Part shown: piece by piece, positions 12,715 through 32,710 of the stretch
Numbering within the stretch: position 1 is the stretch's first letter
How the letters are laid out: each line of letters starts with the position of its first letter
DNA from: Burkholderiales bacterium
GTDB lineage: Bacteria > Pseudomonadota > Gammaproteobacteria > Burkholderiales > Burkholderiaceae_E
Length of the DNA: 64,000 bases
Direction of reading: 5' to 3'
Assembly: GCA_027487815.1 (NCBI GenBank)
Contig: JAIYCW010000034.1
Location: 1 to 64,000 of the forward strand
Notes under the pieces: generated by a model
The model's database searches: none
Seen by the model: the letters and a program-made list of their open reading frames with translations, nothing else
Told to the model about the DNA's origin: nothing
Program-made: the position numbers and the translations under genes

Positions 12715-13890
12715 TCAAGCAGCAATCTCGAAAACCTGACGCAAATAGTTCAGGTAATTGAGATCATCACACATGGTTTTTTCAGGCGTATCCGACAGTT
12801 TGGCAACCGGCTGACCATTACAACGCACCATCTTCATCACAATTTGCAAGGGTGTATAGCCCAGGTCGTTAGTGAAGTTGGTGCCAATACCGAAGGCAGT
12901 GCGGGCACGGCCGTTGAAGCGTCGATACAACTCAATGGCAATCGGAAAGTTCAGCCCATCCGAAAAGATCAGGGTCTTGGTTTTGGGGTCCACGCGGTTG
13001 TGCTCGTAGTGCGCAATCAACCGCTCCCCCCAGTCAAACGGGTCGCCCGAATCATGCCGCGCACCATCAAACAGTTTGCAGAAGTAAAGATCGAAGTCAC
13101 GCAGAAATGCGCTCATGCCATATACATCGGATAGCGCAATCCCCAGATCACCCCGATACTCGCGCGCCCACATCTCGAAGGCAAAGGTCTGCGAATCACG
13201 CAGGCGGGGGCCGAGCGCCTGGCATGCTTGCAGGTATTCATGAGCCATCGTGCCAAGCGGCAATACCCCATGCTTCATGGCGAGGTACACATTGCTCGTG
13301 CCAGCAAAATTAGCCCCGAGCTTGGCCTTGGTGGTCAGAATCACCTCTTCATGCCAAGCTTTGGAAAATCGCCTCCGGGTACCGTAGTCTGCGATGCGCA
13401 GACCTTCCAGATCGGGCTGATCCACAACACTTGCAATCTTCTGATCCAGGCGCTTTCGACCGGTGGCATAGTCCGGCACTTTCACCAGATGCCGGAAGTA
13501 GAGTTCATTTACGATCGAGAGCACCGGAATTTCAAACAGGATGGTGTGCAGCCAGGGCCCCTGAACCTTGATCTCGATTTCGCCACTTTCATTGTCCGCC
13601 GCACGCACCTCAATGGTTTTTCGGTTCATCTGGAACAAGCCGAGAAAGTCTACAAAATCGCTTTTCAACCAGCGCCAGGTTCGCAGGTATTGCAACTCAC
13701 TTTCCCGAAAGCGCAGCGTGCATAGCTGATCAAGCTCTTCTTGCAATTGCGGAAGAATCGGGCGCAGGTCAATGCCGGGGTTGCGGCACTTGAAGCGGTA
13801 CTCCACCTGCGCACCGGGAAAGTGATGCAGCACTACTTGCATCATGGTGAATTTGTAGAGATCCGTGTCAAGCAGAGAAGTGATGATCAT
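12715..13890 (-). CDS. pncB: Nicotinate phosphoribosyltransferase
   Basis: PncB (391 residues) makes nicotinate mononucleotide from nicotinate and PRPP with ATP, the salvage entry to NAD. The family start [14 protein letters not shown], the substrate-loop segment [13 protein letters not shown] and the phosphoribosyl site [11 protein letters not shown] are all present, and length fits. It lies on the same strand, 89 bases downstream of the TetR gene that ends the nicotinate catabolic operon, so the same nicotinate pool may feed both NAD salvage and breakdown. Whether it is read from the long operon or its own promoter in 13891-13979 is not decidable here. Confidence 0.96.
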
Positions 13891-13979: not shown

Positions 13980-14600
13980 TCAGTCCAGCGGCTTAACGAA
14001 AGCCAGCACCATGCCCAAAGCATCATCGGCCAAGGCCTGCATGGACCTTTGCTCAGCCACCGGATAACCGAGCACGGCTGAAAGGGTGTGCTGATTGGAA
14101 ACCACGAAGTAGCCAAGCGAAGCAATCAAAACATAAAGCCGAACCGCATCCAGTTCGGCACGCAGCTTGCCCGCATGTTGGCCGCGCGCCACCACTGCCT
14201 TTAGAAGTGCAACAATTGGTGCGACGAGTTCGGGGAGCTGCTCGGAGGTGCGCAAGGTTTGTGCCTGGCGCAGATTCTCGGTGTTGAGCAAGCTCACAAA
14301 CTCGGGATGCTGCGCGTAATAGCGCCACACGAACCGACTGAATGCAGCCACGGCAGCCAAGGGCTCCAAACCATCAAGCGCCAGCGCCTGCTCGGCATCA
14401 CGCAAGTCACCATAGACTTTTTCAAGCGCTGCGCGATAGAGCAACTCTTTTGAATCGAAGTAGTAATACACCATCCGTTCGCTCGATTGAGCGGCCTGCG
14501 CGATACGATCTCCCCGAGCTCCCGCTAAACCATACTGAGCAAACTCACTGATCGCCGCCTCGAGAATGCGCTTGCGGGTGGCCTGCGGATCGCGCTTCAT
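13980..14600 (-). CDS. TetR/AcrR family regulator, likely local regulator of the nicotinate operon
   Basis: A 206-residue TetR-type repressor: the N-terminal helix-turn-helix spans about residues 10-55 (TRKRILEAAISEFAQYGLAG ... SERMVYYYFDSKELLY), followed by an all-helical ligand-binding domain. The ATG overlaps the enamidase stop by one base (TAATG), making it the last gene of the long catabolic operon. The obvious target is the repeated TGAAGTA half-site at 27962-27990 in front of the operon, with a pathway intermediate as inducer; both are inferences. Confidence 0.88.
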   Translation of the reverse strand: MKRDPQATRKRILEAAISEFAQYGLAGARGDRIAQAAQSSERMVYYYFDSKELLYRAALEKVYGDLRDAEQALALDGLEPLAAVAAFSRFVWRYYAQHPEFVSLLNTENLRQAQTLRTSEQLPELVAPIVALLKAVVARGQHAGKLRAELDAVRLYVLIASLGYFVVSNQHTLSAVLGYPVAEQRSMQALADDALGMVLAFVKPLD

Positions 14601-15808
14601 TATGCGTGGGCGAGGATCACCGGTACTTCACTGGCAGGTGGCGTGTTGCGACTGCGCTGGCAGCGTACGATGCCATCAATAATCACCATTCCAACCCCGG
14701 GAATATCACCCAGTTCCACACTTTCCAGCAAGGTTGTGCCAGCCGAATGTTGCGCGCGATCCATCAGCACAAAATCAGCGGGGCGCCCCACCTCAATCAG
14801 GCCTTGAGGCAGACCCCGCATGCGGGCAATATTGCCCGTGGCAAATCCGAATACGATCTCGGCCGGAATATCAGCCATGGATGAAATCAGCGCTATCAGG
14901 CGCAGCATTCCAAGTGGCTGCACTCCACTTCCCGCAGGCGAATCTGTACCAAGGATCACTCGGTGCGGGCACTTCAATTCCATCGCATGGCGAGCCGTAA
15001 GAATGCCAATGCGCTCATTGCCGTTGTGCACAATTTCGATGGCCCGGGAGCTTTTCTCGCACAGGGTACAGACCTGTTTGTACGGCAGCGAGGTATGCCC
15101 GCCATTGATATGCCCAATAACATCGGCATCCGCCTCAAGCACCACATCTGCATCAATCAAGCCTGAACCGGGAATCGAAGGACCACCGGTATGGATCGTG
15201 CTTTGAATCCCGTATTTGCGTGCCCACCCCACCATTTGCGCCGCCTGATTCCCGGCCTTTACGCTGCCCAAGCCCACCTCACCCAGCAGCTTGACCCCAT
15301 TGCGCGCAAGCTCGGCAAAATCTTCCTCAACCATGCCTTGTTCAATCACCGGGGCTCCTGCCAACACCTTGACTCCACCCCCCACCCCGCTGGCCCGCAT
15401 GCCTTCAAACGCACGCTGGGCAGTGACGGCAAAAGCCTTTAGCCCGACAATATCCTTCGGGCGTCCGGGAAGATGCACTTCGCCTGCAGAAATCATGGTG
15501 GTGACCCCACCGTGCATGCATGAGTCAATCCAGCCGATTTGATTTTGCCGGGGCGTCCAATCGCCAAACACCGGATGGGTATGCGAGTCGATCAATCCCG
15601 GAGCCAGGCAAGTGCCGCGTGCATCGATCAGCGTTGTGGGTTCGCTGACGTCCACGTCTGCCAACCGACCTATCGCAGTGATTACACCATCATGGATAAC
15701 TAGCGTGTCGGCCTGCAGTATCGGCTGATCGATATCGCCTGAAAGCATCAACCCGATATTGCGGATAACGACCTTGCCCGAACTTGCTGCGGCTGCTTGT
15801 AGCGCCAT
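14600..15808 (-). CDS. ena: Enamidase (1,4,5,6-tetrahydro-6-oxonicotinate amidohydrolase)
   Basis: A 402-residue cytosolic amidohydrolase that I recognise as a homologue of Eubacterium barkeri enamidase, a Fe/Zn enzyme that opens 1,4,5,6-tetrahydro-6-oxonicotinate to 2-formylglutarate and ammonia. Metal-binding signatures are DSHTHPVFGD (first His pair), GEVGLGSVK (bridging region), HTGG and HINGGHTS (further His), and GTDSPAGSG (catalytic Asp). Family-specific text includes HGGVTTMISAGEVHLPGRPKD and the tail SRNTPPA, which I recall from the E. barkeri protein. GGAG lies seven bases before the ATG. It follows livF by 29 bases. A generic imidazolonepropionase-type hydrolase is the alternative. 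Confidence 0.88.
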   Translation of the reverse strand: MALQAAAASSGKVVIRNIGLMLSGDIDQPILQADTLVIHDGVITAIGRLADVDVSEPTTLIDARGTCLAPGLIDSHTHPVFGDWTPRQNQIGWIDSCMHGGVTTMISAGEVHLPGRPKDIVGLKAFAVTAQRAFEGMRASGVGGGVKVLAGAPVIEQGMVEEDFAELARNGVKLLGEVGLGSVKAGNQAAQMVGWARKYGIQSTIHTGGPSIPGSGLIDADVVLEADADVIGHINGGHTSLPYKQVCTLCEKSSRAIEIVHNGNERIGILTARHAMELKCPHRVILGTDSPAGSGVQPLGMLRLIALISSMADIPAEIVFGFATGNIARMRGLPQGLIEVGRPADFVLMDRAQHSAGTTLLESVELGDIPGVGMVIIDGIVRCQRSRNTPPASEVPVILAHA

Positions 15809-15837
15809 GATCGATCTCCTGTGTAGAGTAAATCCAC

Positions 15838-16557
15838 CTAAACCGCCAGGTAACTTCGGCGTAAATTCTCGTCTTCTTCCAGTTCACGCATCGCGCCGGT
15901 AAATCTGACCTGCCCTTTTTCGAGCACCACTGCACGGTCGCTTACCGCGCATGCGAAAGGGAAATTCTGTTCGCTCAGGACAATCGCGAGACCTTGAGTC
16001 TTGAGCTGCATGATGGCTTGCGCCATGTGCTCCACAATCAGTGGCGCTACACCCTCTGAGGGTTCATCGAGCAAAATCATCTTCGGGTTGCCCATCAAGG
16101 TTCTTGCCACTGTGAGCATTTGTTGTTCGCCGCCACTCATTTGGCCACCGGGACGATCCGGCATCCGCGCCAGATTGGGAAACAGGGCAAACACCCGCTC
16201 CACCGTCCAGGGCTCTTGGCCGTCGCGTGCCGGGCGAGTGCCGACTTGCAGATTTTCAAGCACGGTGAGATCAGTGAAGATGCGTCGGTCTTCCGGCACA
16301 AATCCCAGGCCGAGTCGCGCAATTTGATAAGCCTCCCAGGTGCCGATGCTTTGCCCCAGGAAGCGAACTTCGCCCGTGCTTTTGCCCACGCCCCGCATCA
16401 GGCCCATGATCGATTTGATGGTGGTACTTTTACCCGCACCATTGCGCCCCATCAGCGCCAACACCTCACCTGCATCGACTTGCAGGCTGACATCAAACAA
16501 AATCTGCGCGCGGCCGTAAAAGGCATTCAGGCGGCTGACTTCCAAAAGAGCGGTCAT
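15838..16557 (-). CDS. Branched-chain-type ABC transporter ATP-binding protein (LivF-like)
   Basis: A 239-residue ABC ATPase of the HAAT (LivF) class that powers the importer encoded in this operon. Walker A GRNGAGKST (about residues 36-44), signature MSGGEQQM, Walker B MILLDEPSEG and the H-loop region (VLSEQNF, with Asn/Glu as usual for LivF) are present. The ATG at 16557 overlaps the livG-like stop (ATGA). The substrate is set by the binding protein; the context says nicotinate or a related acid. Confidence 0.95.
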   Translation of the reverse strand: MTALLEVSRLNAFYGRAQILFDVSLQVDAGEVLALMGRNGAGKSTTIKSIMGLMRGVGKSTGEVRFLGQSIGTWEAYQIARLGLGFVPEDRRIFTDLTVLENLQVGTRPARDGQEPWTVERVFALFPNLARMPDRPGGQMSGGEQQMLTVARTLMGNPKMILLDEPSEGVAPLIVEHMAQAIMQLKTQGLAIVLSEQNFPFACAVSDRAVVLEKGQVRFTGAMRELEEDENLRRSYLAV

Positions 16558-17324
16558 CGCGCGAGCTTTCCTGAACCAAAATAAACTTCCCGAACTTTGG
16601 GGTCATCCTGCACCTCTTGCGCGCTACCTCGCGCGATCAGCGCACCGCGGGCAAGCACCATGATGTGATCCGCATGCGCAAACACCACATCCATACTATG
16701 TTCTGTGAACAGCACACCAAGCTTACGCTCGCGGGCCAGGCGACGGGTCAGCTCCATCAGCGCATGCCGCTCGCCGGGTGCCATCCCCGCAGTGGGCTCG
16801 TCCATCAGAAGCAATCCCGGTTGGTTACCCAGAGCCATCGCCAGTTCAAGGCGTTTCACATCACCATAAGCCAAAATGCTTGCGGCAACATCGGCTTGCT
16901 GCTTCAGGCCCACCGCATCGAGCAGTTCGAGCGCTTCATCGCGCCGTAAATCCGCAGCTGGCCTCCACCATCGGCCAAGCTCCCGATGATGGCTCCACAG
17001 CACGGTTTGCACATTTTGTGCGACGGTCATGGAGCTGAAGGTGGCAGCAACCTGGAATGTGCGCCCCACCCCCCGCATCCAGATTTGTCGGGGCGCGAGG
17101 CCTGCCAGCGTCTGACCCTTGATGCGCACCTCGCCCCGGTCGGGTTTGAGCTGCCCGTTGATCATGTTGAAGCAGGTGGATTTACCCGCGCCATTGGGGC
17201 CAATCAGCGCCAGCATTTGCCCGGGCTGCAAGGAAAAACTCACATCAATCACGGCCTGAACGCCACCGAAGCTTTTGTGCAGGCCCCGCACCTCAAGAAG
17301 TGGCGGCAGGTTTGTTGGGTTCAT
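16554..17324 (-). CDS. Branched-chain-type ABC transporter ATP-binding protein (LivG-like)
   Basis: A 256-residue ABC ATPase of the LivG class, the second of two different ATPases in this importer. Walker A GPNGAGKST, a signature region reading ASILAYGDVKRLELAMAL (divergent, typical of LivG), Walker B LLLMDEPTAGM and H-loop FTEHSMDV are visible. The ATG at 17324 overlaps the permease stop (ATGA) and gives a normal LivG N-terminus (MNPTNLPPLLEVRGL); open frame upstream lies within the permease gene and is not coding. Confidence 0.95.
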   Translation of the reverse strand: MNPTNLPPLLEVRGLHKSFGGVQAVIDVSFSLQPGQMLALIGPNGAGKSTCFNMINGQLKPDRGEVRIKGQTLAGLAPRQIWMRGVGRTFQVAATFSSMTVAQNVQTVLWSHHRELGRWWRPAADLRRDEALELLDAVGLKQQADVAASILAYGDVKRLELAMALGNQPGLLLMDEPTAGMAPGERHALMELTRRLARERKLGVLFTEHSMDVVFAHADHIMVLARGALIARGSAQEVQDDPKVREVYFGSGKLAR

Positions 17325-19237
17325 GATCGAAGCACCGTGCCGCGTGACGTGCGCCAGGCATGCCAGCGCTGGGTAATTGAGCCCGCAATGCCCTGAGGAA
17401 ACACCAGCACCAGCACCAGGATTACTGCGCCCAGTAAAGCTCGCCAATAGTCGGTGTTGCGAATGATGGTGTCTTGAAGATAGGTGAACACAACACTGCC
17501 GACAATCGGCCCAGCCAAGGACTGAATACCACCCAGCAACACCATGATCAATCCATCCACCGAACGGCCCACTGAAATGGTTTCGGGCGAGATGGTGCCC
17601 TTGGCAAAGGCAAACAAGCTCCCCGCCAATCCACAGAACACTCCGGCGATAACAAATGCGCGCCAATGCACTGCGACGACATCAATGCCAATTGCGCCCG
17701 CACGCGCCGGAGAATCGCGCCCGGCTCGCATTGCAAATCCGAAAGGGGCAAACAGGATGCGGCGCATCACCACTATGCTAAGCACCACCAAGCCAAGGGC
17801 AAGATAGTAGTAGGCCGTTTTTGATGCCAACCACGGCGCGGGCCACAAGCCCAGCAAACCATTGCTACCCCCGGTGACTTCATCCCATTGAAACACCACT
17901 GACCAGACAATCTGCGCGAAGGCCAAGGTAAGCATCGCGAGATACACGCCTGAGAGGCGCACCGCAAACCAGCCAAACACCATCGCGCCCACCAAGGCCA
18001 ACACTGGCGCCCCTATCAGGGCCCACTCCATGCTCCAGCCGAACCCTTTCATCAGGGCCGCTGCGCCATAGGCTCCGAGTCCGAAATAGGCTGCGTGACC
18101 AAACGAGTGCATACCGGCTGGCCCCATAATGAAATGCAAGCTCACCGCAAACAGCACCGCGATCAGAATATCGATCAGCAGGATCACCACATACGGCGAT
18201 GCGCTGGCCAGAATCGGCATCAACGCAAGCATGCCAAGCACACCAAGCATGATGAGCTGCGCGGGTTTGCCCATGGCCCGCAAAGGCGCTTCAATCTCAG
18301 CGGCGTTACGCACCGCAGCGCCAGGCTTGCCCATGAGGCCCCAGGGTCGAATGATCAGCACCAGAGCCATCACCAGAAACTCCACCACCATGGTGAACTT
18401 TGAAAATGCGATGCTGATGCCGCCGATCTCCTGAGTGCCCAGCCCGTAGCACAGGCTCTTGAGCACCGAGATCAGAAGTGCTGCCAGATAGGCCCCCGGG
18501 ATGCTGCCCATGCCCCCCACAACAACCACGACAAACGCTTCACCAATCGCGGTTAAATCAATGCCAAGATTGGCGGGTTCGCGAGGCATCTGCAGGGCTC
18601 CGCCCAAGGCTGCCAGTGCTGAGCCCAGGGCAAATACCGCTGTGAATAGCCAGGCCTGATTGACGCCCAATGCCGCCACCATTTCACGATCCTGCGTGGC
18701 TGCTCGAATCAGCACACCGAAGCGGGTACGCTTTAGCAATAACCATAAGCCGAGCAGCACCGCCGGGCCAATCGCAATCAACACCAGATCGTATTGCGGA
18801 AAGGGGCGACCAAACAGCTCAACTGCGCCTTTGAGCCCCGGAGCTTTGGGGCCAAGAATATCCTCAGCCCCCCACAACCAAAGGGTGGCATCGCGCAGCA
18901 TCAGCACCACGGCAAAGGTGGCGAGCAATTGAAACAACTCCGGCGCGGCATAAATCCGCCGCAAAATCAGCATCTCCACTGCGGCGCCGAGTAATGCCAC
19001 AGCGCATGCCGCGAGCACCACAGCGCCCCAGAAATCCCACCCACTCAGTGCAGCATCGCCGGCCAGCCAACGCACCGCCGAGGTAGCCACATACAGCCCG
19101 ATCATCGTCATCGAGCCGTGAGCAAAATTGACAATTCGGGTCACACCAAAAATCAGTGATAACCCGACCGCAATCAAAAACAGGGTGGAGGCGCTAGCCA
19201 GCCCATTGAGGAGCTGGCCAGCCAGACTGGCCCACAT
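17321..19237 (-). CDS. Fused LivH-LivM permease of the branched-chain-type ABC importer
   Basis: One 638-residue polypeptide joins both permeases normally encoded separately. Residues 1-~290 are LivH-like (GLSLIFGVTRIVNFAHGS, ending near KFTMVVEFLVMALVLI); a short polar linker (~300-320) leads to a LivM-like half (AGMHSFGHAAYFGLGAYGAA, GVYLAMLTLAFAQI). About 15-17 membrane segments in all. I chose the ATG at 19237 rather than a TTG one codon earlier; it follows the binding-protein stop by six bases. There is no frameshift: the join is in frame with good linker sequence. It forms the channel for the operon's solute, presumably nicotinate. Confidence 0.92.
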   Translation of the reverse strand: MWASLAGQLLNGLASASTLFLIAVGLSLIFGVTRIVNFAHGSMTMIGLYVATSAVRWLAGDAALSGWDFWGAVVLAACAVALLGAAVEMLILRRIYAAPELFQLLATFAVVLMLRDATLWLWGAEDILGPKAPGLKGAVELFGRPFPQYDLVLIAIGPAVLLGLWLLLKRTRFGVLIRAATQDREMVAALGVNQAWLFTAVFALGSALAALGGALQMPREPANLGIDLTAIGEAFVVVVVGGMGSIPGAYLAALLISVLKSLCYGLGTQEIGGISIAFSKFTMVVEFLVMALVLIIRPWGLMGKPGAAVRNAAEIEAPLRAMGKPAQLIMLGVLGMLALMPILASASPYVVILLIDILIAVLFAVSLHFIMGPAGMHSFGHAAYFGLGAYGAAALMKGFGWSMEWALIGAPVLALVGAMVFGWFAVRLSGVYLAMLTLAFAQIVWSVVFQWDEVTGGSNGLLGLWPAPWLASKTAYYYLALGLVVLSIVVMRRILFAPFGFAMRAGRDSPARAGAIGIDVVAVHWRAFVIAGVFCGLAGSLFAFAKGTISPETISVGRSVDGLIMVLLGGIQSLAGPIVGSVVFTYLQDTIIRNTDYWRALLGAVILVLVLVFPQGIAGSITQRWHAWRTSRGTVLRS

Positions 19238-19243
19238 CAAAAA

Positions 19244-20494
19244 TCAGGACGCAGGACGAAGCTTGACTACCTCGGCATCGGTAGGCTGCACAGCAGCACC
19301 ATCGATATAACGGAAGTTCTTCATCACCCCGCGCCCCTGATTCACCGTGGTGATGCCGACCCAGGCACCCATCGTGGACTGATTATCCTGAGCGCGATAG
19401 GTGATCGGTCCGGCGGGTGTATCCACCTTGAGGCCCTTAAAGGCGGTGATCACTTTCTCGGTGTCGGTGCTGCCTGCCTTCTTGATCGCGGCTGCAATCG
19501 ACATCATGGTGCTGTAGCCCACGATCGAGCCCAAGCGGGGATACTCTTGCCAGCGCTTTTGGTAGGCCTGCAAAAACTTCGAGTGCTCCGCAGTCTGAAT
19601 GCTGTACCAGGGGTATCCGGTCACAAGCCAGCCCTCGGGTGCTTCGTCGCGCAGGGGATCCAGATACTCAGGCTCACCGGTGAGCAAGCTGACCACCTCA
19701 CGCCCTTTAAACAGACCACGGGTGTTGCCCTCCCGAACAAAGCGGGCCAAATCTGCCCCAAAAAGCACATTAAAAATTGCATCCGGTTTGGCATCAGCCA
19801 ACGCTTGAACCACCGCACCTGCGTCAACTCGGCCCAATGCAGGCGCTTGCTCCGCAACAAACTCGACATCAGGTTGTGCGGCTTTGAGCAAGGCCTTGAA
19901 GGTGGCTACCGCAGACTGTCCATACTCGTAGTTTGGATACACCACTGCCCAGCGCTTTTTGCGCATCTTGGCCGCTTCGGGAGCAAGCATGGCGGCCTGC
20001 ATATACGTCGAGGGGCGCAGGCGGAAGGTATAGCGATTCCCACTTCCCCAGGTAATCTTGTCTGTCAGCGGTTCGGCCGCCACAAAAATTACTTTACGCT
20101 GCTTGGCAAAATCGGTCACAGCCAAACCAATATTGGAAAGGAAAGTGCCGAAAATCAACTCAGCCTTTTCCCGCGATACCAGTTCCTCGGCAACCCGCAC
20201 CGCATCGCCTGGATTGCCGTTGTCATCGCGTGAGATCACTTCAACCTTGCGGCCCAACAAGCCGCCAGTGGCATTGACTTGTTCCAGCGCGAGCTCCCAA
20301 CCCTTTTTGTAGGGCTCCAGAAATGCAGGCTGTGATTTGTAGCTGTTGAGTTCGCCAATCCGAATGGGTGCGCCTTGCGCCTGACCCAGAGCAGGCAAGC
20401 CGCCCAGCATTGAGGCCGCTGCTGCACCCTGCAACACCTGGCGGCGCGATGATGTGTTGGTGAGCTTCGAGTCAGCCTGGTTTTGTTTTTTCAT
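19244..20494 (-). CDS. ABC transporter substrate-binding protein (HAAT/LivK-like, Tat signal)
   Basis: A 416-residue periplasmic type-1 solute-binding protein. The N-terminus carries a twin-arginine signal: SSRRQVLQGAAAAS, a hydrophobic stretch, then ALGQAQG as the likely cleavage region. The mature protein starts PIRIGELNSYKSQPAFLEPY and has the two-lobed LivK pattern (ELIFGTFLSNIGLAV, FNVLFGADLARFVREG, STMMSIAAAIKKAG). AAGGA is six bases before the ATG. First gene of the transporter block in the nicotinate operon, so it probably captures nicotinate or hydroxynicotinate; amide- or urea-type solutes are alternatives for this class. Confidence 0.92.
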   Translation of the reverse strand: MKKQNQADSKLTNTSSRRQVLQGAAAASMLGGLPALGQAQGAPIRIGELNSYKSQPAFLEPYKKGWELALEQVNATGGLLGRKVEVISRDDNGNPGDAVRVAEELVSREKAELIFGTFLSNIGLAVTDFAKQRKVIFVAAEPLTDKITWGSGNRYTFRLRPSTYMQAAMLAPEAAKMRKKRWAVVYPNYEYGQSAVATFKALLKAAQPDVEFVAEQAPALGRVDAGAVVQALADAKPDAIFNVLFGADLARFVREGNTRGLFKGREVVSLLTGEPEYLDPLRDEAPEGWLVTGYPWYSIQTAEHSKFLQAYQKRWQEYPRLGSIVGYSTMMSIAAAIKKAGSTDTEKVITAFKGLKVDTPAGPITYRAQDNQSTMGAWVGITTVNQGRGVMKNFRYIDGAAVQPTDAEVVKLRPAS

Positions 20495-20542
20495 CTTGCT
20501 TCCTTCAAATGTTGCAAAAAAATATTTCCATCAAATGCGCTA

Positions 20543-21127
20543 CTAGCGCAAGCCATCTTGACCCACGACCTCATGAACCTGCAATCCCCCGACGCGAGGC
20601 AAGGGCCGTCCGGTAGCGCTGACCGCTACAGCCACCAAAATTTCGTTACTGCGGGGTGCATCACCTATTCGCGCCTCAATCGCATCGAAATGGCTGCGCA
20701 CAAAAGCAGCATCCTTATGCCCCAGCGGCACATCGATTGCGGTGCCCAGTGTGCCGACTTTTTTGGCTGATGGCACCAAAGCAGCACCTTTTTCCACTGC
20801 GACCCTCAAAGGTGCACCAAGTTTCGGATGCAGGATCGCGGCCGCATGCTCCAACTCACCGGCCTCACCAACAATTGCCGCCTTGCCATAGCCCTGCGCT
20901 TGCGCCGGTTCGATGCCCAAGGCTTCAACACACTTAGCACCGAGCAATCCGCCAAGCTCTTCACCGATAGCGATTAGCTCGTCAAGCGTTGCACTAAAGC
21001 GTCCGGCATAAGGGTTGGCGATCACGGCCATAGCCAAGGCGCGCCTTGCTGGGGGATCAACAACCTGACCCATCTCCTGCATCACTTCATCCAGGACCAC
21101 CACCAGTTTTCTGATCTGCGCTTGCAT
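20543..21127 (-). CDS. DUF1185 (amino acid synthesis, AA_synth) family protein, copy A
   Basis: A 194-residue member of Pfam PF06684, a family with solved structures but no established reaction. The family blocks are visible: VVLDEVMQEMGQ near the start, AVIANPYAGRF, GYGKAAIVGEAGELEHAAAILHPKLG, GALVPSAKKVGTLGTAIDVPLGHK and a C-terminal VRSHFDAIEARIG. It shares all of these with the neighbouring copy B but is more compact, so they are diverged paralogues, not a recent duplication. AAGG lies eight bases before the ATG. Position between the reductase genes and the transporter suggests a step after or beside ring reduction; the reaction is unknown. Confidence 0.88.
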   Translation of the reverse strand: MQAQIRKLVVVLDEVMQEMGQVVDPPARRALAMAVIANPYAGRFSATLDELIAIGEELGGLLGAKCVEALGIEPAQAQGYGKAAIVGEAGELEHAAAILHPKLGAPLRVAVEKGAALVPSAKKVGTLGTAIDVPLGHKDAAFVRSHFDAIEARIGDAPRSNEILVAVAVSATGRPLPRVGGLQVHEVVGQDGLR

Positions 21128-21173
21128 AAGATTGACCTTGTTCTAAATGTTTGGTGTGTCAGCTGGCAACGGA

Positions 21174-21815
21174 CTAGCGTTGACCATCCATCCGACTGAT
21201 TTCGCTTGCTGCCATGCCACCTGCCCGCGCATGAACCCGCGCCCCGCAGGCCATCACCAGAATCAGCACCATTTCATCAGCACGCGGCGCACCCGCCACC
21301 TTGACTTCAAACGCATCAAAATGACTGCGCACATAGCTTGCATTCAAATGAGTTAAAGGCACATCCAAACTCGCACCGGGTCCGCCAACCTTTTTGGTAG
21401 AGGGCACAATCGCCAGGGCATTGCCGCCCTTTTCAAGACCGCGTTGCCCGATAGCCTCAGTGGGCAGCGAAGGGTTGCGCTTCCAGCCCAATACCTCCCG
21501 CATGCTGTAGCCACCAGGCGCGTGCCATAAAGCTCCGTGTTCGAGCTCACCCGAAGCACCGATGATTGCGCCTTTGCCATAGGCTTCAATCTGTTCGAGA
21601 TCGCCGCCAAGGGCTGTGAGTAGCTGCTGCGCAAGCTTTATGCCTAGGGGCTCAAGCGCTTTCATCAACGGCAGGATATCGGGCTCGTAATACCCCGCAT
21701 ATGGATTGCGAATCACCGCTGCAATCGCACCGCGCTTGGCGGGCTTGGCGGGAGGTGGGCCAAACTCATGATGGATGAGTTCGACTTGGGTGAACACGCG
21801 GCGCAGTTCGATCAT
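21174..21815 (-). CDS. DUF1185 (amino acid synthesis, AA_synth) family protein, copy B
   Basis: A 213-residue PF06684 protein. Conserved blocks: AAVIRNPYAGYYEPD, EAYGKGAIIGASGELEHGALWHAPGG, LAIVPSTKKVGGPGASLDVPLTHL and YVRSHFDAFEVKVAG. The ATG at 21815 sits two bases after the UPF0280 stop (TGAGCATG), which I prefer to a TTG at 21848 that would extend into the upstream gene. Together with copy A it may form a heteromer or two sequential activities; no catalytic residue is established for the family, so none is claimed. Confidence 0.87.
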   Translation of the reverse strand: MIELRRVFTQVELIHHEFGPPPAKPAKRGAIAAVIRNPYAGYYEPDILPLMKALEPLGIKLAQQLLTALGGDLEQIEAYGKGAIIGASGELEHGALWHAPGGYSMREVLGWKRNPSLPTEAIGQRGLEKGGNALAIVPSTKKVGGPGASLDVPLTHLNASYVRSHFDAFEVKVAGAPRADEMVLILVMACGARVHARAGGMAASEISRMDGQR

Positions 21816-21817
21816 GC

Positions 21818-22732
21818 TCAAGACAATACCATCCCTTGATGTTGACAACTGAGGGCTGCACCCGCGATCAATCCATCCGATTTCAACCGCTGTGCAAATT
21901 GATGCCCGCGCTCAAGCGCCTGCCGCACCAACTGAGGGGCTAGCTTGCCCACTTCGACCGTGACGAGGCGCTCACCAAGATCGCTGTCATCACGCACCTG
22001 ATCGGCAGGTTTGCGCTTGATCGCCGGATCATTGATATCGACTTCATTCGCAATCATCGTGGCTGCAGCATCGGCCTGGCTTGCTGTTGCAGCCAGCACG
22101 GTGACACTATCGGCCACGCCAAGTGACAGGCTGCGACCACCCCAGCCCGAGGTGGCGATGCCGCAAATATTGCTTGCCGCATCGATTCGCAATACGCCGT
22201 CGATCGCAGGCGATTCAATCCGCTGCACCATGCCCACCGTCATCTGCTGCCTCGAGGCAAGATAAAGCGCAATATCCCCGCCATTATTGATCGCAGCCCG
22301 CTGAATCCCGGGGCGCTTAAAACATTCAATCAGGGTTTGGCCAACTGCACCGGCTACCGCAGCCATCGGAGTGATGAACTTTTCATAGCGCTGATGGAAC
22401 GGCAACACCGCCGAATACATCAAGCTCGCTGTGTAGCCCTTTGCTGTGTAGCCCTTCGCCTTGTAGCCCTTCACCCTTTGGCTCATTGCTGGGCTGATGT
22501 TTTGTGCCGGTTGACGCAGCAGCCTGAGCTCGCTCACCAGCTCGCTTAGCAAGGGCGCGAACCTTGTCCATGCATCATTCACTGCAGATCGCACAATCTC
22601 ATCAGAACCTTCGGCCCAGATGATCAAATCAATTGGGCCATGCTGGAAGTGCCAGCGCTGCGCGTCGAGCTGACGAGCCATTGGACCCCCTGGCCCCACC
22701 GACCCTTCTGGCCCCTCCCCCCGCCACGTCAT
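21818..22732 (-). CDS. UPF0280 family protein (ApbE superfamily), putative flavinyltransferase-like
   Basis: A 304-residue protein of COG2122/UPF0280, placed in the ApbE superfamily, whose founding members attach FMN covalently to target proteins. The segment AAINNGGDIALYL (about residues 150-160) resembles the ApbE motif NxGGDI; ATSGWGGRSLSLG and the threonine/alanine-rich region before it also fit. The start overlaps the hnr stop by four bases (ATGA), giving a glycine/proline-rich N-terminus. Near residues 88-102 there is a threefold 15-base repeat (see repeat feature) encoding a KGYTA-like lysine/tyrosine-rich insert. Direct link to the upstream reductase is inferred; classical ApbE activity is not shown for this family. 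Confidence 0.82.
   Translation of the reverse strand: MTWRGEGPEGSVGPGGPMARQLDAQRWHFQHGPIDLIIWAEGSDEIVRSAVNDAWTRFAPLLSELVSELRLLRQPAQNISPAMSQRVKGYKAKGYTAKGYTASLMYSAVLPFHQRYEKFITPMAAVAGAVGQTLIECFKRPGIQRAAINNGGDIALYLASRQQMTVGMVQRIESPAIDGVLRIDAASNICGIATSGWGGRSLSLGVADSVTVLAATASQADAAATMIANEVDINDPAIKRKPADQVRDDSDLGERLVTVEVGKLAPQLVRQALERGHQFAQRLKSDGLIAGAALSCQHQGMVLS
22432..22476 (-). repeat. Three tandem 15-base units inside the UPF0280 gene
   Basis: Units at 22432-22446, 22447-22461 and 22462-22476 share the core TGTAGCCCTT on the plus strand and differ in the last five bases. In the gene they encode in-frame KGY-containing pentapeptides, so copy-number change would not break the frame. Confidence 0.85.
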
Positions 22733-24216
22733 TCTGATTCTCCGGCCGGGGATGCCAGCGGCACCAATGGCCAGGGCTCACCGGCAGGCCAGGCAATCAC
22801 CCGATGTTCGTGGTTCGCCATCACATCTTCAACCGACTGCACACGCGAGACATGCCCTCCGAGCGCTGCATAATCCGCAAGGGGCATCGTGAATTCAATT
22901 GGCGCCACAATCGCGGGCGTGGGTACCGAACCAAATGAGCCTGCAGGCATGCGAGCCACATCAACCATCACGGTGATGCCACCGCCCGGCCACACATAAG
23001 CGGGCGCGCCGCCACAAGTCACCCGGGTCAGGCTTTGCTTGATCGAACGGGTCAAGCGCACGGGATTGTCTGTGACGCCTGCACGCAAGCTGCCTCCCGC
23101 TCCACCAAGAAACAGCACCGTACAGATCGCAGGTTCGCAATTCTCACCAATCCGCTCCACCACCTGCGCCACCGGCTGCGGCATCGGTGCAGCTTGCGGC
23201 GTCAATGCCTCATCCAGCACAAAATACTGCGCATGCTCGCCCGTGGTGGAGACCATCAGTATCCGCATGCCAGGCTGCGCATAGCGTGGATCGAATCGCT
23301 CAATAATCGATAAGGGGTCCTGAATATCCGTGCCGCCCCAACCGGTGCCGGGATTGGCCACCTGGAAGTAACGCCCAGGCGTCGACTTCTTGCCTCGGAT
23401 TTTCAGACCCGAGGGTGGCATATCCAGACAGCGCCCTGCCTGATGCTCGCTAAGCACACCGGTGATGTGATCATCAACCACCACCACCTCGTCCACATGC
23501 CCCAGCCACTGCTGCGCGAAAATACCTATCGTGGCCGACCCGCAACCCACCCGCATCCGTTGTTCGGGTACACCATTCACAATCGGCGCTGCACCCGATT
23601 GCACTATCACCGTGGCCCCGCCTTCAATCACCAACTCAGCTGCGCCACCGTTACCCAATCGCTCCATCAACTCGCAGGTGACGCGACCCTCTTTTTTTGA
23701 CCCGCCGGTGAGGTGATGCACACCGCCAATCGACAGAAATTGGGAACCATATTCAATGGTCGTGACATGCCCCACCGCCTCATCCTGATATCTCACGGTG
23801 GCCTGCTCAGGACCGAGATAGCGATCCGTATCGATCTTCACTTTAAAGCTGCAATAGCTGAAGATCCCCTCGGTGACGACTGTCACCATATCCATGCCCT
23901 CATGGCGTGAACCTACGATAAACGGTGCGGGCTTGTAATCCGGATAGGTGGTGCCGCTGCCCACTCCGGATACGAATATTGGCGAGGGGTTGATGATTGA
24001 TCCATCCCACTGCGCGGGGTCGCTGGCTACAAGTGCCCTGGGCTCGCGGGCCATCAGCACGACCGGGTCCATCCGCTTGAGCACCCCCTCCACATTGCCC
24101 CAGCGGTCGCAAGCCCCGAGACGACCCGGACTGATCTGGCACAACACCGGGCAGGCATCGCACTGGATCTTGTCTTGCGCCATGTTTGCAGGCTGCGGGC
24201 TTGGGGTCAGGCTCAT
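22729..24216 (-). CDS. hnr: 6-Hydroxynicotinate reductase
   Basis: A 495-residue protein that I recognise as the Hnr family: ferredoxin-dependent reduction of 6-hydroxynicotinate to 1,4,5,6-tetrahydro-6-oxonicotinate. An N-terminal cysteine cluster (Cys19, Cys22, Cys26, Cys36; CDACPVLC ... GACDRWGN) probably binds an iron-sulfur cluster. Glycine-rich stretches SGVGSGTTYPDYKPAPF, RVGCGSATIGIF and LGGAGGSLRAGV follow. The E. barkeri enzyme has covalent flavin, one [2Fe-2S] and two [4Fe-4S]; here I see ligands for only one obvious cluster, so separate ferredoxin may be needed. ATGA overlaps on both sides couple it to the Mo-hydroxylase and UPF0280 genes. The name rests on memory of the family plus context. 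Confidence 0.82.
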   Translation of the reverse strand: MSLTPSPQPANMAQDKIQCDACPVLCQISPGRLGACDRWGNVEGVLKRMDPVVLMAREPRALVASDPAQWDGSIINPSPIFVSGVGSGTTYPDYKPAPFIVGSRHEGMDMVTVVTEGIFSYCSFKVKIDTDRYLGPEQATVRYQDEAVGHVTTIEYGSQFLSIGGVHHLTGGSKKEGRVTCELMERLGNGGAAELVIEGGATVIVQSGAAPIVNGVPEQRMRVGCGSATIGIFAQQWLGHVDEVVVVDDHITGVLSEHQAGRCLDMPPSGLKIRGKKSTPGRYFQVANPGTGWGGTDIQDPLSIIERFDPRYAQPGMRILMVSTTGEHAQYFVLDEALTPQAAPMPQPVAQVVERIGENCEPAICTVLFLGGAGGSLRAGVTDNPVRLTRSIKQSLTRVTCGGAPAYVWPGGGITVMVDVARMPAGSFGSVPTPAIVAPIEFTMPLADYAALGGHVSRVQSVEDVMANHEHRVIAWPAGEPWPLVPLASPAGESE

Positions 24217-27083
24217 GGGTTCAACGCCGCCAATAATCGAGTAGGAGTAACGGGCACCTCATTCATGCGCACACCGCAGGCTGCATGGATCGCATTGAGA
24301 ATCGCCGGAGCGGTGGCGCACAACGCGGGTTCACCCACTCCTTTTGCACCCCATGGGCCGAGCGGCTCGGGATCTTCAATCAAATGGATCGTGATTGCAG
24401 GCATGTCACCTACGGTAGGGATCAGGTAGTCGTGCAGATTATCGGTGCGCCCGCTGATGTATTCCTCCATCAAGGCCAAGCCCAGACCCTGAGCAATGCC
24501 GCCCTGGATTTGCCCTTCGACCTGGGCTGGATTGATCGCGCGTCCAACATCATGCGCGGCATGAATATTCAGCACCCGCACGAGGCCAAGCGAGCAATCC
24601 ACTTCCACATGGGCAAACTGTGCAGCAAAACCATAAGTGGCATAGGGCACACCTTGCCCGTCAGCATCCAGGGCAATCGTGGGTGGGTTAAAGGTGCCTG
24701 AGCCCATCAGCACATGACCTTGCGCATCCACTGGCAACTCTGCAAGCTTGATCCAGGCAGTCTCGACATTGGAAGCGTTCAAGCCGATCTCACCTTGATT
24801 GAGTTTCGACACATCGATGTTTACTTGATCAATCGCAGGTAACTCATTCAGGCCAGCCCAGGCCAACCGCGCCAATTGGCGCTTTAAATCGAGCCCGGCG
24901 AAACGCGCTGCGTTGCCTGACACGAAGGTTTGGCGCGAAGCCGAGCTTTTTCCGGCGTCCTCAGTCAAAGCGGTGTCGGCGTGCACTTGTTGGAGCAGGT
25001 GCATCGGCACCCCCAAGGCGTCGGCGGCCATCTGCATCATGATGGTGTAAGTGCCCTGGCCAATATCTATCGCACCGTTGTAAAGCACGAGCCCACCATT
25101 GGGCTTCAAGCCCAAGGTCATGGTTGAGGGATTGGCAATTACCGTGTTGCCAATGCCGTACCACATGCAGGCGATACCCACACCTTGCTTGAGCACAGCC
25201 GATTGAGCATTGAAGCTTGCACACTGCACCAACGCCTGACCCCAAGCAGGGCGCAAAGCATCCAGACAGGCTTGCAAACCCACACTGGCTTCCAGGCGCT
25301 GCCCGGTGGGTGTGAGATCACCTGCTCGCAACGCCCGCTGATGACGAAACTCCAGGGGGTCTTGCCCACAAGCCTGGGCCGCTTCATCGATCAAACGCTC
25401 ATTAAGCAAGGTGGACTGCGGCACACCAAAGCCCCGAAACGCACCAGCCACCGCATTGTTGGTCAACACCGCGCGAGTCAGTGCTCGCACATGCTGCACA
25501 CGATAGGGGCCGCTGGCATGAATTGGTACACGGTTGGCTACTGTGGGGCCCCAACTGGAATACGCGCCTGTGTTGAAGTCGCCAGAAAAATCATAGGCGA
25601 GCAATTCGCCTTGCGCATCAACAGCCAGACTCGCTTGCATGATCGCAGGATGCCGCTTGGTGCTGGACACCATCGATTCAGGCCGGTCATAAATCAGCAT
25701 GGCAGGTCGGCCAAACTTGCGGGCCGCTGCAACAATCAAGGGCTGTACCGACATATCAAGTTTGCCGCCAAACCCGCCCCCCACGGCCGATGGGATGATG
25801 CGCACCTGCCCGGGCTGCAACCCAAACATGTTCGCCAATTCATCGCGATCCATATAGGGCGTTTGGGTAGTGACGAACACGGTGGCCACACATGCATCAG
25901 CACCTTGCTTTTCGGCCTTGCAATCCCACTGCGCCCAGCCCGCCTCCGGCTCAATGTATGCATGCTCAACATGCTGGGTGGACATCATCGCCTCGAAGTG
26001 CCCAAAGCCTTGCTCGAGGGATTGTGCGAGAGCGCTATCGACATCGCCGCGCACCACTCGCCCGCGGCACAACACGTTATCGGGCCAGCGCTCCTGCACC
26101 GGATCCGCGGCGTTTAAGGCGTCAACAATTTCGCTTCGCACCATAAGCTGGTGGAAGCTCACCGGCGGAGGATCGACCTTGAAGTCCAAAGCACTAATGG
26201 CTAAGGGCTCGCCCACAACAACAATCACCGCCTCGCCGCGAAACCGAGCAACCCTTTCGGCGAGTGCAGGCTGATCACGAAGATCTGGGAAGATCGCAAA
26301 GCGGTTGATCTTGATATCGAGTGGTGTAATCACACCCGCGAGGCCCGGATGCTTATCAATCCAGCCTTGAAGGTCTCCGATCTCGATGCGCGCATGCGCG
26401 AGGGGAGAACGAAATACCTTGAGCATGAGCGTATCGGGCGGCATTTCATCGGCACCATAACGCGCGCGACCGGTCACCTTGTCGTGAGCATCGAGCCTCG
26501 CCACTGAAGCACCGACTGCCTGACCAGCCAACACTGCGGAGCTTTCGATGGCCTGGGTTACCGAACTCACAGCGGTTCTTAAGGTCGGATTCGATTGCGC
26601 CGCGAGCAACACCGCCTCAACAATTTTGGTATATCCGGTGCAACGGCACAGTACGCCGCCCAGTCCATCAAGCACTTCGGCATGGGTCGGTTGCGGATGC
26701 TTCGACAAGGTATCGTAGGCCGCCATCAGCATCCCGGGCGTGCAGATGCCACATTGAGCCGCCCCGGCCGAGATAAAAGCTTGCTGCAGCCGCATGCCAA
26801 GCGGAGTGCTTGCGAGCCCTTCCACCGTGAGTATCTCGGCATCGCGCACTTGCCCAAGCGGCACCAGACAAGCGCAGGCCTGGTCTCCGGAGATCATGAC
26901 AGTACACGCCCCGCAGTCTCCTGAGTGACAGCCAATTTTCGTGCCTGTGAGCCCTGCGCCTCCCTGATTTTCGGGGGCTCTCAATGCATCAGACAAGCGC
27001 GCTTGAGGGGTCATGGCAAAGCGCATTGGTTGCGCATTCACCATGCAGGATGTGGCTTGATTAACTGTGGCCGTTGAGCTCAT
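24213..27083 (-). CDS. Nicotinate hydroxylase-type molybdoenzyme, fused [2Fe-2S] and molybdopterin subunit
   Basis: A 956-residue xanthine-oxidase-family protein in which the two-cluster iron-sulfur subunit is fused to the molybdopterin subunit. Plant-type [2Fe-2S] ligands are Cys52, 57, 60 and 72; the second cluster uses Cys111, 114, 146 and 148. The molybdenum domain starts near residue 190 (ARLDAHDKVTGRARYGAD), with GGGFGGKLD, GAFRGFGVPQ and the catalytic glutamate in GAKGVGEPALCATAP. Expected reaction: hydroxylation of nicotinate at C6. The ATG at 27083 overlaps the FAD-subunit stop (ATGA); an upstream open frame is inside that gene. Substrate is inferred from the hnr and ena neighbours; another purine- or pyridine-type ring is possible. 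Confidence 0.88.
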   Translation of the reverse strand: MSSTATVNQATSCMVNAQPMRFAMTPQARLSDALRAPENQGGAGLTGTKIGCHSGDCGACTVMISGDQACACLVPLGQVRDAEILTVEGLASTPLGMRLQQAFISAGAAQCGICTPGMLMAAYDTLSKHPQPTHAEVLDGLGGVLCRCTGYTKIVEAVLLAAQSNPTLRTAVSSVTQAIESSAVLAGQAVGASVARLDAHDKVTGRARYGADEMPPDTLMLKVFRSPLAHARIEIGDLQGWIDKHPGLAGVITPLDIKINRFAIFPDLRDQPALAERVARFRGEAVIVVVGEPLAISALDFKVDPPPVSFHQLMVRSEIVDALNAADPVQERWPDNVLCRGRVVRGDVDSALAQSLEQGFGHFEAMMSTQHVEHAYIEPEAGWAQWDCKAEKQGADACVATVFVTTQTPYMDRDELANMFGLQPGQVRIIPSAVGGGFGGKLDMSVQPLIVAAARKFGRPAMLIYDRPESMVSSTKRHPAIMQASLAVDAQGELLAYDFSGDFNTGAYSSWGPTVANRVPIHASGPYRVQHVRALTRAVLTNNAVAGAFRGFGVPQSTLLNERLIDEAAQACGQDPLEFRHQRALRAGDLTPTGQRLEASVGLQACLDALRPAWGQALVQCASFNAQSAVLKQGVGIACMWYGIGNTVIANPSTMTLGLKPNGGLVLYNGAIDIGQGTYTIMMQMAADALGVPMHLLQQVHADTALTEDAGKSSASRQTFVSGNAARFAGLDLKRQLARLAWAGLNELPAIDQVNIDVSKLNQGEIGLNASNVETAWIKLAELPVDAQGHVLMGSGTFNPPTIALDADGQGVPYATYGFAAQFAHVEVDCSLGLVRVLNIHAAHDVGRAINPAQVEGQIQGGIAQGLGLALMEEYISGRTDNLHDYLIPTVGDMPAITIHLIEDPEPLGPWGAKGVGEPALCATAPAILNAIHAACGVRMNEVPVTPTRLLAALNP

Positions 27084-27943
27084 GGCAACAAGCTCACACA
27101 GGCTTGTGCAATCAACACCTTCGCTGCAGCCAGGCGGTAGGCAGCACTGGCACGAACATCGTCGATAGGGCTCAACCCTGACATCGATGCCGGATCGGCC
27201 CAAGCGCGCTCGATCTGCGTCACCAACTGCCCCGCTGGACAGCCGATTAATCGCTTTTCCAATGCTGCCATGCGTTGCGCCACTGGCGAACATGCCCCCA
27301 CCGCAATTCTGAGCCCCGCAATCCGGGATTGCTGGTCCCACTGCATCGCGACCGCAACCATGACAAACGAAATCACCAGATACCGGCGGTTTCCAAGCTT
27401 GCGAAACACGGTTCGCGTGGTTGTCTGGCGTGGCACAACAATGGAATGCAACAGCTCATCGGCAGCCAAGGCGGTGCGCCTTGGCCCGAGGAGAAAATCA
27501 CCCAAGGGCAAACGGCGAGTAGCGCTCGCACTGTGGAGCTCGACTTCCGCTTCCAATGCGAGCAATGGCGGCACACCATCTGCTGCCGGCGAGGCATTAC
27601 ATAGATTGCCTCCGAGGGTGCCGCGATGCTGCACTTGCCAACCGCCAACATCGCGTGCCGCCTGCGCAAGGCAAGTCAGTTCGCCGGCCAGATCAGCGGC
27701 CTGCAACCTCGCCCAGCTCACTCCTGCGCCCAGGCGAATCGACTCCCTACCGATATCAATTTGCTGCAGAGCAGCAATGGCGCTGATATCCAGCATCGGC
27801 ACTTCAACCGGTCGCCCCACCCGAGCCGCATACCAATCGGTACCGCCAGCGACCACATGAACTCCACTGTGGTTTTGCAGCACGCGCAGGCCCTCCGAAA
27901 GCGCTTCGGGGCGCCAATACTCGGCTTGAGGTAGTGCAAGCAT
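27080..27943 (-). CDS. Molybdenum hydroxylase FAD-binding subunit (CoxM/XdhB-like)
   Basis: A 287-residue FAD subunit that carries electrons from the iron-sulfur clusters of the hydroxylase to its acceptor. The FAD-binding motifs VVAGGTDWYA (about residues 30-39) and HRGTLGGNLCNASPAAD (about 106-122) are intact, as is the C-terminal CO-dehydrogenase-flavoprotein domain. First gene of the catabolic operon; the ATG has GGAA upstream. The 100 bases before it are shared with the divergent fdxA gene and hold the presumed operator. Confidence 0.93.
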   Translation of the reverse strand: MLALPQAEYWRPEALSEGLRVLQNHSGVHVVAGGTDWYAARVGRPVEVPMLDISAIAALQQIDIGRESIRLGAGVSWARLQAADLAGELTCLAQAARDVGGWQVQHRGTLGGNLCNASPAADGVPPLLALEAEVELHSASATRRLPLGDFLLGPRRTALAADELLHSIVVPRQTTTRTVFRKLGNRRYLVISFVMVAVAMQWDQQSRIAGLRIAVGACSPVAQRMAALEKRLIGCPAGQLVTQIERAWADPASMSGLSPIDDVRASAAYRLAAAKVLIAQACVSLLP

Positions 27944-31864: not shown

Positions 31865-32710
31865 ATGCCCAGCATTCATTCGCTTCATACTTACCCGGTG
31901 AAATCCTGTCGCGGCATTGAGCTGCCCCGGGTTGAAGTGCTGGCGCATGGCCTGGCCTACGATCGCGAATGGATGATTGTGGATCGACATGGCGAGTTTC
32001 TGACTCAGCGTGAAATCCCGGCGCTTGCACGAATCACCACTGGGCTCACCCCGACTCATTTACATCTGTCGGTTTACGGTCGAGGGGGCGTCTCAACACC
32101 TCTGGCTATTGATCCAACACAAAAAATGATTGCAGTGAAGTGCTGGAACTACGAAGGCATGGCACTCGATTGCGGGACGCAAGCTGCCGATTGGTTAAGC
32201 GATCTTTTAGAGCAACCCGTGCGCCTCGTACGCTTTGCCCGTGAGGAGCGTCGATGGTGTAACCCCGAATGGGTGGGGGAAGTGCCCCTGGGCGATCAAG
32301 CTGAGCGCGCCCGCACTTTGTTTTCAGATGGCTACTCAGTGCTTGTACTGGGCACGGCTTCGGTTGCGGACCTCTCGAAGCGTATGGGCCAGGACGTTCC
32401 GTTGGATCGGTTTCGGGCCAATGTTGTTATTGAAGGGCTTGAGCCCTATGACGAAGACTTCGTCACCGAACTCTCCACCTCAGTGGCGGACAGCGCGGTG
32501 TTGAAACTCGTCAAGCTTTCTCCACGCTGTTCAGTGCCGAGCGTAGACCAACAATCCGGCGAGATTACTGCGGTTGACCCCACTTCAATCTTGACCCAAT
32601 ACCGCTTCAATCGAGAAGTCGGTGGCGCAGTGCTGGGCAATAATGCGGTAGTGCAACGTAATGGTTGGCTGGAGCGCGGCAGCACTCTTATTCTGCAAAA
32701 CAACTTCTAA
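31865..32710 (+). CDS. MOSC domain protein (YcbX/mARC-like)
   Basis: A 281-residue protein with the N-terminal MOSC beta-barrel domain (LHTYPVKSCRGIELPRVEV, LAYDREWMIVD) and a C-terminal MOSC domain containing the molybdenum-cofactor cysteine in LSPRCSVPSVD (near residue 220), FRANVVIEG and LGNNAVV. YcbX-type proteins reduce N-hydroxylated compounds with a partner reductase; here the C-terminal ferredoxin domain of E. coli YcbX is absent, so electrons must come from elsewhere. It follows the Nfn-like gene by 22 bases, which makes a shared transcript likely. Confidence 0.88.
   Translation: MPSIHSLHTYPVKSCRGIELPRVEVLAHGLAYDREWMIVDRHGEFLTQREIPALARITTGLTPTHLHLSVYGRGGVSTPLAIDPTQKMIAVKCWNYEGMALDCGTQAADWLSDLLEQPVRLVRFAREERRWCNPEWVGEVPLGDQAERARTLFSDGYSVLVLGTASVADLSKRMGQDVPLDRFRANVVIEGLEPYDEDFVTELSTSVADSAVLKLVKLSPRCSVPSVDQQSGEITAVDPTSILTQYRFNREVGGAVLGNNAVVQRNGWLERGSTLILQNNF

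Follow-up and report, generated by a model that had tools for sequence, protein, structure and literature searches.

We report a gene island in a Burkholderiales bacterium (GenBank assembly GCA_027487815.1) that very probably encodes nicotinate import and reductive ring opening by an upper route of the Eubacterium barkeri type. Beside its reductase gene, hnr, lies a gene of the UPF0280 family whose product is most likely needed for active Hnr, as a maturation factor. The island lies in the window, the stretch of 64,000 nucleotides (nt) of contig JAIYCW010000034.1 that was analysed. It comprises twelve genes at 13980-27943, every one on the minus strand, in the transcription order fad, mop, hnr, upf0280, aas1, aas2, livK, livHM, livG, livF, ena, tetR (Table 1). 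Protein families, Ena residue conservation, synteny and the co-occurrence of Hnr with UPF0280 were computed here; nicotinate as substrate, the electron route, the role of UPF0280 and the fate of 2-formylglutarate are what we infer.

In the proposed pathway, a Liv-type ATP-binding cassette (ABC) importer would bring in nicotinate, and a hydroxylase carrying flavin adenine dinucleotide (FAD), iron-sulfur (FeS) clusters and molybdenum (Mo) would convert it to 6-hydroxynicotinate. Hnr, of the 6-hydroxynicotinate reductase family, would reduce this product to 1,4,5,6-tetrahydro-6-oxonicotinate (THON), which the enamidase Ena would open and deaminate to 2-formylglutarate; the TetR-family protein would control the cluster. 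Hydroxylation yields two electrons and reduction takes two, so the three overlapping genes fad, mop and hnr could encode a redox-neutral set. The UPF0280 protein would act by making Hnr active, and 2-formylglutarate would be processed onward via glutarate, by analogy with Azorhizobium.

Layout of the island

Open reading frame (ORF) analysis, family matches and synteny bear out the twelve same-strand genes proposed by an earlier, sequence-only reading; family matches or conserved synteny stand behind every one of them. The gene content then proposed (molybdenum hydroxylase, 6-hydroxynicotinate reductase, enamidase, ABC importer and TetR regulator) is supported by family matches or annotated relatives, and the lengths of 495 and 402 residues given for two of the products are correct; the UPF0280 gene had been passed over. 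That reading also had the genes mostly linked by ATGA overlaps. Five of the eleven junctions are 4-nt ATGA overlaps (fad/mop, mop/hnr, hnr/upf0280, livHM/livG and livG/livF), ena/tetR overlaps by 1 nt and the other five are gaps of 2-48 nt: a bare majority of junctions (6/11) do overlap, but ATGA overlaps fall short of one. Likely starts differ from those of the longest ORFs for mop (27083), aas1 (21815), livHM (19237) and livG (17324).

A scan with an Hnr alignment gave at least 588 confirmed stretches, of which the best-scoring 80 loci were kept, a set skewed to close relatives. One of these, L024, from a Burkholderiaceae metagenome-assembled genome (MAG), has the identical order from fad to tetR together with pncB. 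As the layout is repeated there, chance does not explain this series of ORFs. Locus L040, from the laboratory strain Paraburkholderia xenovorans LB400, has the same module.

Enamidase and hydroxylase

The search of the 402-residue protein against E. barkeri Ena, suggested by the sequence-only reading, revealed homology to the enamidase structure 2vun over the full length (residues 11-397, E 9e-105), with 175 of 387 aligned positions identical (45%). Residues H76, H78, E177, H206, H233 and D289 align with H67, H69, E164, H193, H220 and D276 of 2vun, six residues (HxH, Glu, His, His, Asp) of the enamidase metal-ligand pattern. Ena would convert THON to 2-formylglutarate and ammonia.

Searched as separate halves, the Mo subunit has its best PDB matches in the two chains of E. 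barkeri nicotinate dehydrogenase: 3hrd_A for one half (1e-62, next match 3e-36) and 3hrd_B for the other (6e-59, next 2e-42). The alignments of the halves place identical residues at Gln208L, Phe353L, Tyr13M and Glu289M, presumably the active-site residues of 3hrd; all but the tyrosine are common in the hydroxylase family. The split, two-chain molybdopterin subunit of the E. barkeri type was not found in the island, where the subunit is one fused chain. The hydroxylase is predicted to work like E. barkeri nicotinate dehydrogenase but to differ in architecture. Another trait of the E. barkeri enzyme is labile selenium. Its Mo subunit is the sole MoCoBD_1 match on the island's contig.

The Hnr family

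Relatives of Hnr at 58-66% identity are present in 26 plasmid records, 17 of which name the protein 6-hydroxynicotinate reductase; three call it hypothetical and six carry no annotation at that place. Other searches of Hnr were negative: no Pfam or NCBIfam family at E 0.001, no sequence relative in the PDB, nothing below E 0.26 in a PDB profile search, and nothing below E 0.05 when four Hnr sequences were scanned against NCBIfam. A fold search with the Hnr model (predicted local distance difference test, pLDDT, 80.5) gave a best Foldseek E of 0.29 and a best VIA Z of 3.5, which is no proof of a new fold.

Residue conservation was assessed in an alignment of the island protein with 49 of the 80 loci, the others being omitted for size, apart from L100, omitted for an in-frame stop. 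Seven cysteines (C19, C22, C26, C36, C122, C225 and C360) are invariant in all 50 rows and could hold Fe-S clusters. The stretch T90-K95 is also invariant, has pLDDT below 50 in the model and is a possible cofactor site; E. barkeri Hnr reportedly carries a covalent flavin (Alhapel, 2006).

Three further observations concern the family. GCV_T_C, the C-terminal barrel of the glycine cleavage T-protein, is a weak Pfam match in 49 of the 50 rows (best E 7e-5), on the island protein at residues 122-158 with E 0.17. In one single-contig genome (G450:C1:2969814-2971255), Hnr lies in two open frames that overlap by 4 nt near model position 240, possibly a natural two-subunit Hnr. The stop in L100 (3997-5451, a MAG sequence) is a single codon within the hnr frame.

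Hnr and UPF0280 occur in the same genomes

The island's UPF0280 protein scores 350.4 bits against the NCBIfam model NF003322 (curated cut-off 290). The sets of genomes positive for Hnr and for NF003322 were identical in each of three samples: 19 of 61 relatives, 4 of 369 genomes drawn evenly from the class and 32 of 398 drawn likewise from the phylum. This makes 53 distinct positive genomes and zero discordant ones, counting as positive one relative (G378) that lies below the NF003322 cut-off. Kinship inflates these counts; the positives of the phylum sample represent 16 of its 213 genera.

Proximity is nearly as regular. UPF0280 is found in 76 of the 80 hnr loci, at no more than 250 nt from hnr in 74; the four loci without it have NF003322 elsewhere in the genome, above the cut-off in three cases and in the fourth as a fragment at a contig edge (41 bits). 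For 30 of the 32 pairs in the phylum sample the distance is at most 200 nt, and for the remaining two it is no more than about 500. Yet the two genes are on different contigs in G190 and about 10 kb apart in G354, and the link is therefore more than adjacency. NF003322 also matched, below its cut-off, in two methanogen genomes used as controls, which indicates that the wider UPF0280 family reaches methanogens.

No paper linking Hnr with UPF0280 or COG2122 appeared among the literature matches listed, a search in which subscription papers were mostly outside the scope.

What UPF0280 may do for Hnr

The AlphaFold2 model of the UPF0280 protein (pLDDT 91) is closest to 2o34 (DVU1097; Z 19.9). The next matches are ApbE, Ftp and FmnB entries (VIA Z 14.0-16.2), after which the next fold falls to 7.9, so the model predicts an ApbE flavin-transferase fold across the full domain. 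Tentatively, we propose that the protein could be the flavin transferase by which Hnr receives its covalent flavin. A profile match to ApbE (probability 92, E 6e-7) covers the C-terminal half and aligns the motifs NNGGD, TSG, SVTV and ADAAAT, including the GGD, TSG and ADxxAT elements, whose residues recur as invariants of the UPF0280 alignment, T225 nearly so. That alignment comprised the island protein together with those of 46 out of the 76 matching loci, and the ApbE profile was built from ORFs at 9 of 17 loci that passed a loose motif filter, individually unchecked. The Pfam ApbE model itself detects the gene linked to hnr in three genomes, exceeding the cut-off in G371 and G386 and staying below it in G406. 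Among the twelve Hnr-positive genomes of a 31-genome sample, six, the island's own included, have no other ApbE, and the invariant, low-confidence T90-K95 segment of Hnr is a possible cofactor site. Against flavin transfer, the ApbE histidine segment (HxIDP/HxxDP) is missing from the profile alignment, for which reason we do not class the protein as ApbE; COG2122 homology seemingly stops short of the flavin-binding region of ApbE (PMC5764234); a DxxSGAT-type motif occurs in 0 of 50 Hnr rows; and an ordinary ApbE is present in the other six Hnr-positive genomes. In the island's genome an ordinary ApbE is unlikely to flavinylate Hnr, there being no PF02424 match at E 0.001, an absence that is uncertain in a genome 95.6% complete.

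The second role to be weighed, which we judge only slightly less likely, is that UPF0280 deals with sulfur or Fe-S clusters on behalf of Hnr, much as COG2122, its wider family, may do with DUF39 in homocysteine synthesis. PMC5764234 describes homocysteine formation in Desulfovibrio vulgaris as requiring COG2122 and DUF39, whose fitness profiles correlate at r = 0.98 over 170 experiments, and cites a persulfide role suggested by others. For methanogen COG2122, an Fe-S-binding cysteine cluster is proposed in PMC9431491. The seven invariant cysteines of Hnr would suit such a role. The partner differs, however (a DUF39-type Pfam match is found in 0 of 50 Hnr rows), the island protein lacks the cysteine pattern of the methanogen protein, and no structural match is strong apart from the flavin-transferase fold. 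The probability left after these two roles goes to a subunit or to other functions.

Compared with COG2122/UPF0280 proteins of Desulfovibrio and methanogens, as characterized in PMC5764234, the island protein shares the fold, with the Desulfovibrio protein DVU1097 as closest structure; in the samples covered here, by contrast, NF003322 members go together with Hnr. A maturation factor of ApbE fold thus remains our preferred role for UPF0280. Its more specific form is possible though short of probable: NF003322 as a dedicated Hnr cofactor-installing enzyme, notably a histidine-less ApbE branch attaching the covalent flavin, perhaps at Thr90.

Exchange of modules around hnr

Gene absence in the 80 loci depends on flank length, many contigs being short. 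The hydroxylase is of the island's FAD type in 27 loci and NicAB-like in 37; 16 have neither and none has both. For ring opening, 51 loci have Ena (at least 60% identity), seven have HyuA/B (at least 50%), 22 have neither and again none has both. HyuA/B therefore stands in for Ena in some loci, and two hydroxylase types interchange. Six of the seven HyuA/B genomes have no Ena relative at E 1e-20, and one has a relative at 42%.

HyuA/HyuB proteins (hydantoinase/oxoprolinase or acetophenone-carboxylase-like) were seen near Hnr and UPF0280, with Ena missing from the stretch, in L026, L037, L065, L073, L077, L095, L100, L103 and L104; the last two are plasmid stretches. On an Hnr tree of all 80 loci and the island, in which 22 rows have no group label, the HyuA/B label changes four times, three of them forced by well-supported branches, gain and loss being indistinguishable. 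The HyuA/B loci thus do not form one tidy clade.

Of the 37 NicAB-type loci, 25 also carry a ferredoxin-NADP reductase gene (for example L102:13911-14684), versus 1 of the 27 FAD-type loci. This is suggestive of respiratory hydroxylases that send electrons away and of an Hnr that would need NADPH, while FAD-type hydroxylases might supply Hnr directly; close kinship among the NicAB-type loci weakens the pattern.

Nicotinate or another substrate

The Ena match to 2vun, the matches of both Mo halves to 3hrd and the annotated relatives of Hnr all support the E. barkeri upper route advanced from the sequence, with nicotinate as the probable substrate. Several observations weigh against it. Searched as a single chain, the Mo subunit has aldehyde oxidoreductase 1dgj on top, ahead of 3hrd, probably because 1dgj is likewise an FeS-Mo fusion. 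The island Hnr appears tied to that of E. barkeri through relatives, not by direct comparison; for one Bradyrhizobiaceae relative, PMC3511419 gives 42% identity to the E. barkeri protein. No lower-pathway gene could be assigned within the island. The replacement of Ena by HyuA/B and the presence of a different hydroxylase in so many loci mean that Hnr alone is no proof of nicotinate as substrate. Elsewhere in the genome, a semialdehyde dehydrogenase exceeds the SSADH cut-off; the family is too general to show a lower pathway.

The HyuA/B loci and plasmid stretches, the lack of Ena in most HyuA/B genomes (the module may serve several pathways or ring-opening chemistries) and a TetR protein that is weakly RutR-like (63 of the 368 bits needed for RutR) would suit degradation of another N-heterocyclic acid by the same enzyme families, for instance a substituted pyridine or pyrimidine carboxylate, but this is unlikely given the similarity of Ena to an enamidase of known substrate, with the six metal-ligand-type residues aligned, the closeness of both Mo halves to nicotinate dehydrogenase and the pncB gene adjoining the island.

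Comparison with known systems

The pathway is not new, and the island is a further carrier of a published route. The sequence-only reading expressed surprise at an E. barkeri upper route in an apparently respiring betaproteobacterium; this was overstated, both route and cluster having been published for aerobic Proteobacteria. As set out in PMC3511419, a like cluster exists in Azorhizobium caulinodans and three Bradyrhizobiaceae (Bradyrhizobium japonicum, R. palustris HaA2 and a strain designated SG-6C), THON is an intermediate in an aerobe, and glutarate is a later intermediate in A. caulinodans. That cluster likewise covers the first three steps, with a putative nicotinate ABC transporter and two conserved unknown proteins (PMC3511419). 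Compared by description with those strains, the island has an FAD-type hydroxylase with fused FeS-Mo subunit, a fused LivHM, two AA_synth genes and pncB nearby.

The gene cluster for nicotinate fermentation in E. barkeri is said to have been described by Alhapel in 2006, with hydroxylase, Hnr and Ena as the upper route, which it would share with the island. The Mo subunit is split in E. barkeri, whereas the island has it undivided and joined to the FeS subunit in a single chain, and no E. barkeri-type lower-pathway gene was recognised in the island. The nic cluster of Pseudomonas putida encodes the maleamate route. Its first step also makes 6-hydroxynicotinate, and its hydroxylase has likenesses in the NicAB-type loci; P. 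putida then oxidises 6-hydroxynicotinate, whereas the island would reduce it.

AA_synth and flanking genes

AA_synth is present in 72 of the 80 hnr loci, including six of the seven HyuA/B loci. As an equally strict partner of Hnr it was rejected: it is over the cut-off in 21 of the 61 relatives, namely 18 of the 19 Hnr carriers and three genomes lacking Hnr. A role in amino-acid metabolism was guessed from its neighbours, branched-chain ABC genes among them (PMC2954203). In loci of the present kind, such ABC genes beside AA_synth may be the nicotinate importer. Because AA_synth is present with both ring-openers, our guess is that it acts no earlier than the Hnr step, possibly as a decarboxylase of the formyl acid.

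The nicotinate salvage gene pncB follows immediately after the catabolic operon, on the same strand; it is beside ena/tetR in two of the 80 loci, L024 and L063. Upstream, a divergent gene encodes a pyridine-nucleotide oxidoreductase of 1155 residues, followed by a MOSC-domain protein (31865-32710, plus strand). Homologues of this flavoprotein occur in four of the 80 loci (L024, L047, L062 and L073), and it is weakly indicated as a possible electron-transfer partner of the pathway. Together, oxidoreductase and MOSC protein are a possible electron supply and molybdenum-cofactor link.

Table 1. Genes of the island and its immediate flanks, in window coordinates.
Feature	Position	Strand	Evidence and remarks
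FAD subunit of molybdenum hydroxylase (fad), 287 aa	27080..27943	-	NCBIfam XdhB-type, best E 1.8e-46, under the model's curated cut-off; ATGA overlap with mop
Fused [2Fe-2S] and molybdopterin subunit (mop), 956 aa from ATG 27083	24213..27083 (longest ORF 24213-27341)	-	Mo halves against 3hrd
hnr, 6-hydroxynicotinate reductase family, 495 aa	22729..24216	-	Named plasmid relatives; invariant cysteines
UPF0280/COG2122-type protein, candidate Hnr maturation factor, 304 aa	21818..22732	-	NF003322; fold of AlphaFold2 model
AA_synth protein 1 (aas1), 213 aa	21174..21815	-	PF06684 E 5e-64, 229 bits against cut-off 27; PDB 3byq E 1e-52
AA_synth protein 2 (aas2), 194 aa	20543..21127	-	PF06684 E 3e-68, 215 bits against cut-off 27
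Periplasmic solute-binding protein, LivK type	19244..20494	-	Peripla_BP_6 E 6e-71
Fused LivH-LivM permease, 638 aa	17321..19237	-	BPD_transp_2 in two stretches
ABC ATPase, LivG type	16554..17324	-	ABC_tran and BCA_ABC_TP_C
ABC ATPase, LivF type	15838..16557	-	ABC_tran
ena, enamidase, 402 aa	14600..15808	-	2vun E 9e-105
TetR-family regulator (tetR), 206 aa	13980..14600	-	TetR_C_29 E 1e-31, TetR_N
pncB, nicotinate phosphoribosyltransferase	12715..13890	-	NAPRTase E 2e-70; 89 nt downstream of island
Flavoprotein, 1155 aa, divergent	28375..31842	+	Pyr_redox_2

Significance

The island adds a carrier to a route that is published but poorly modelled, as illustrated by the lack of any Pfam or NCBIfam model matching Hnr at E 0.001. 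That Ena and HyuA/B, and likewise the two hydroxylase types, replace one another suggests a reused Hnr-UPF0280 core, and cautions against calling nicotinate pathways from Hnr alone. The chief lead is the Hnr/UPF0280 partnership itself, through which COG2122, a family of uncertain function, gains a second and experimentally easy partner. If NF003322 does install a cofactor in Hnr, this would hint at the function that COG2122 has for DUF39 in homocysteine synthesis.

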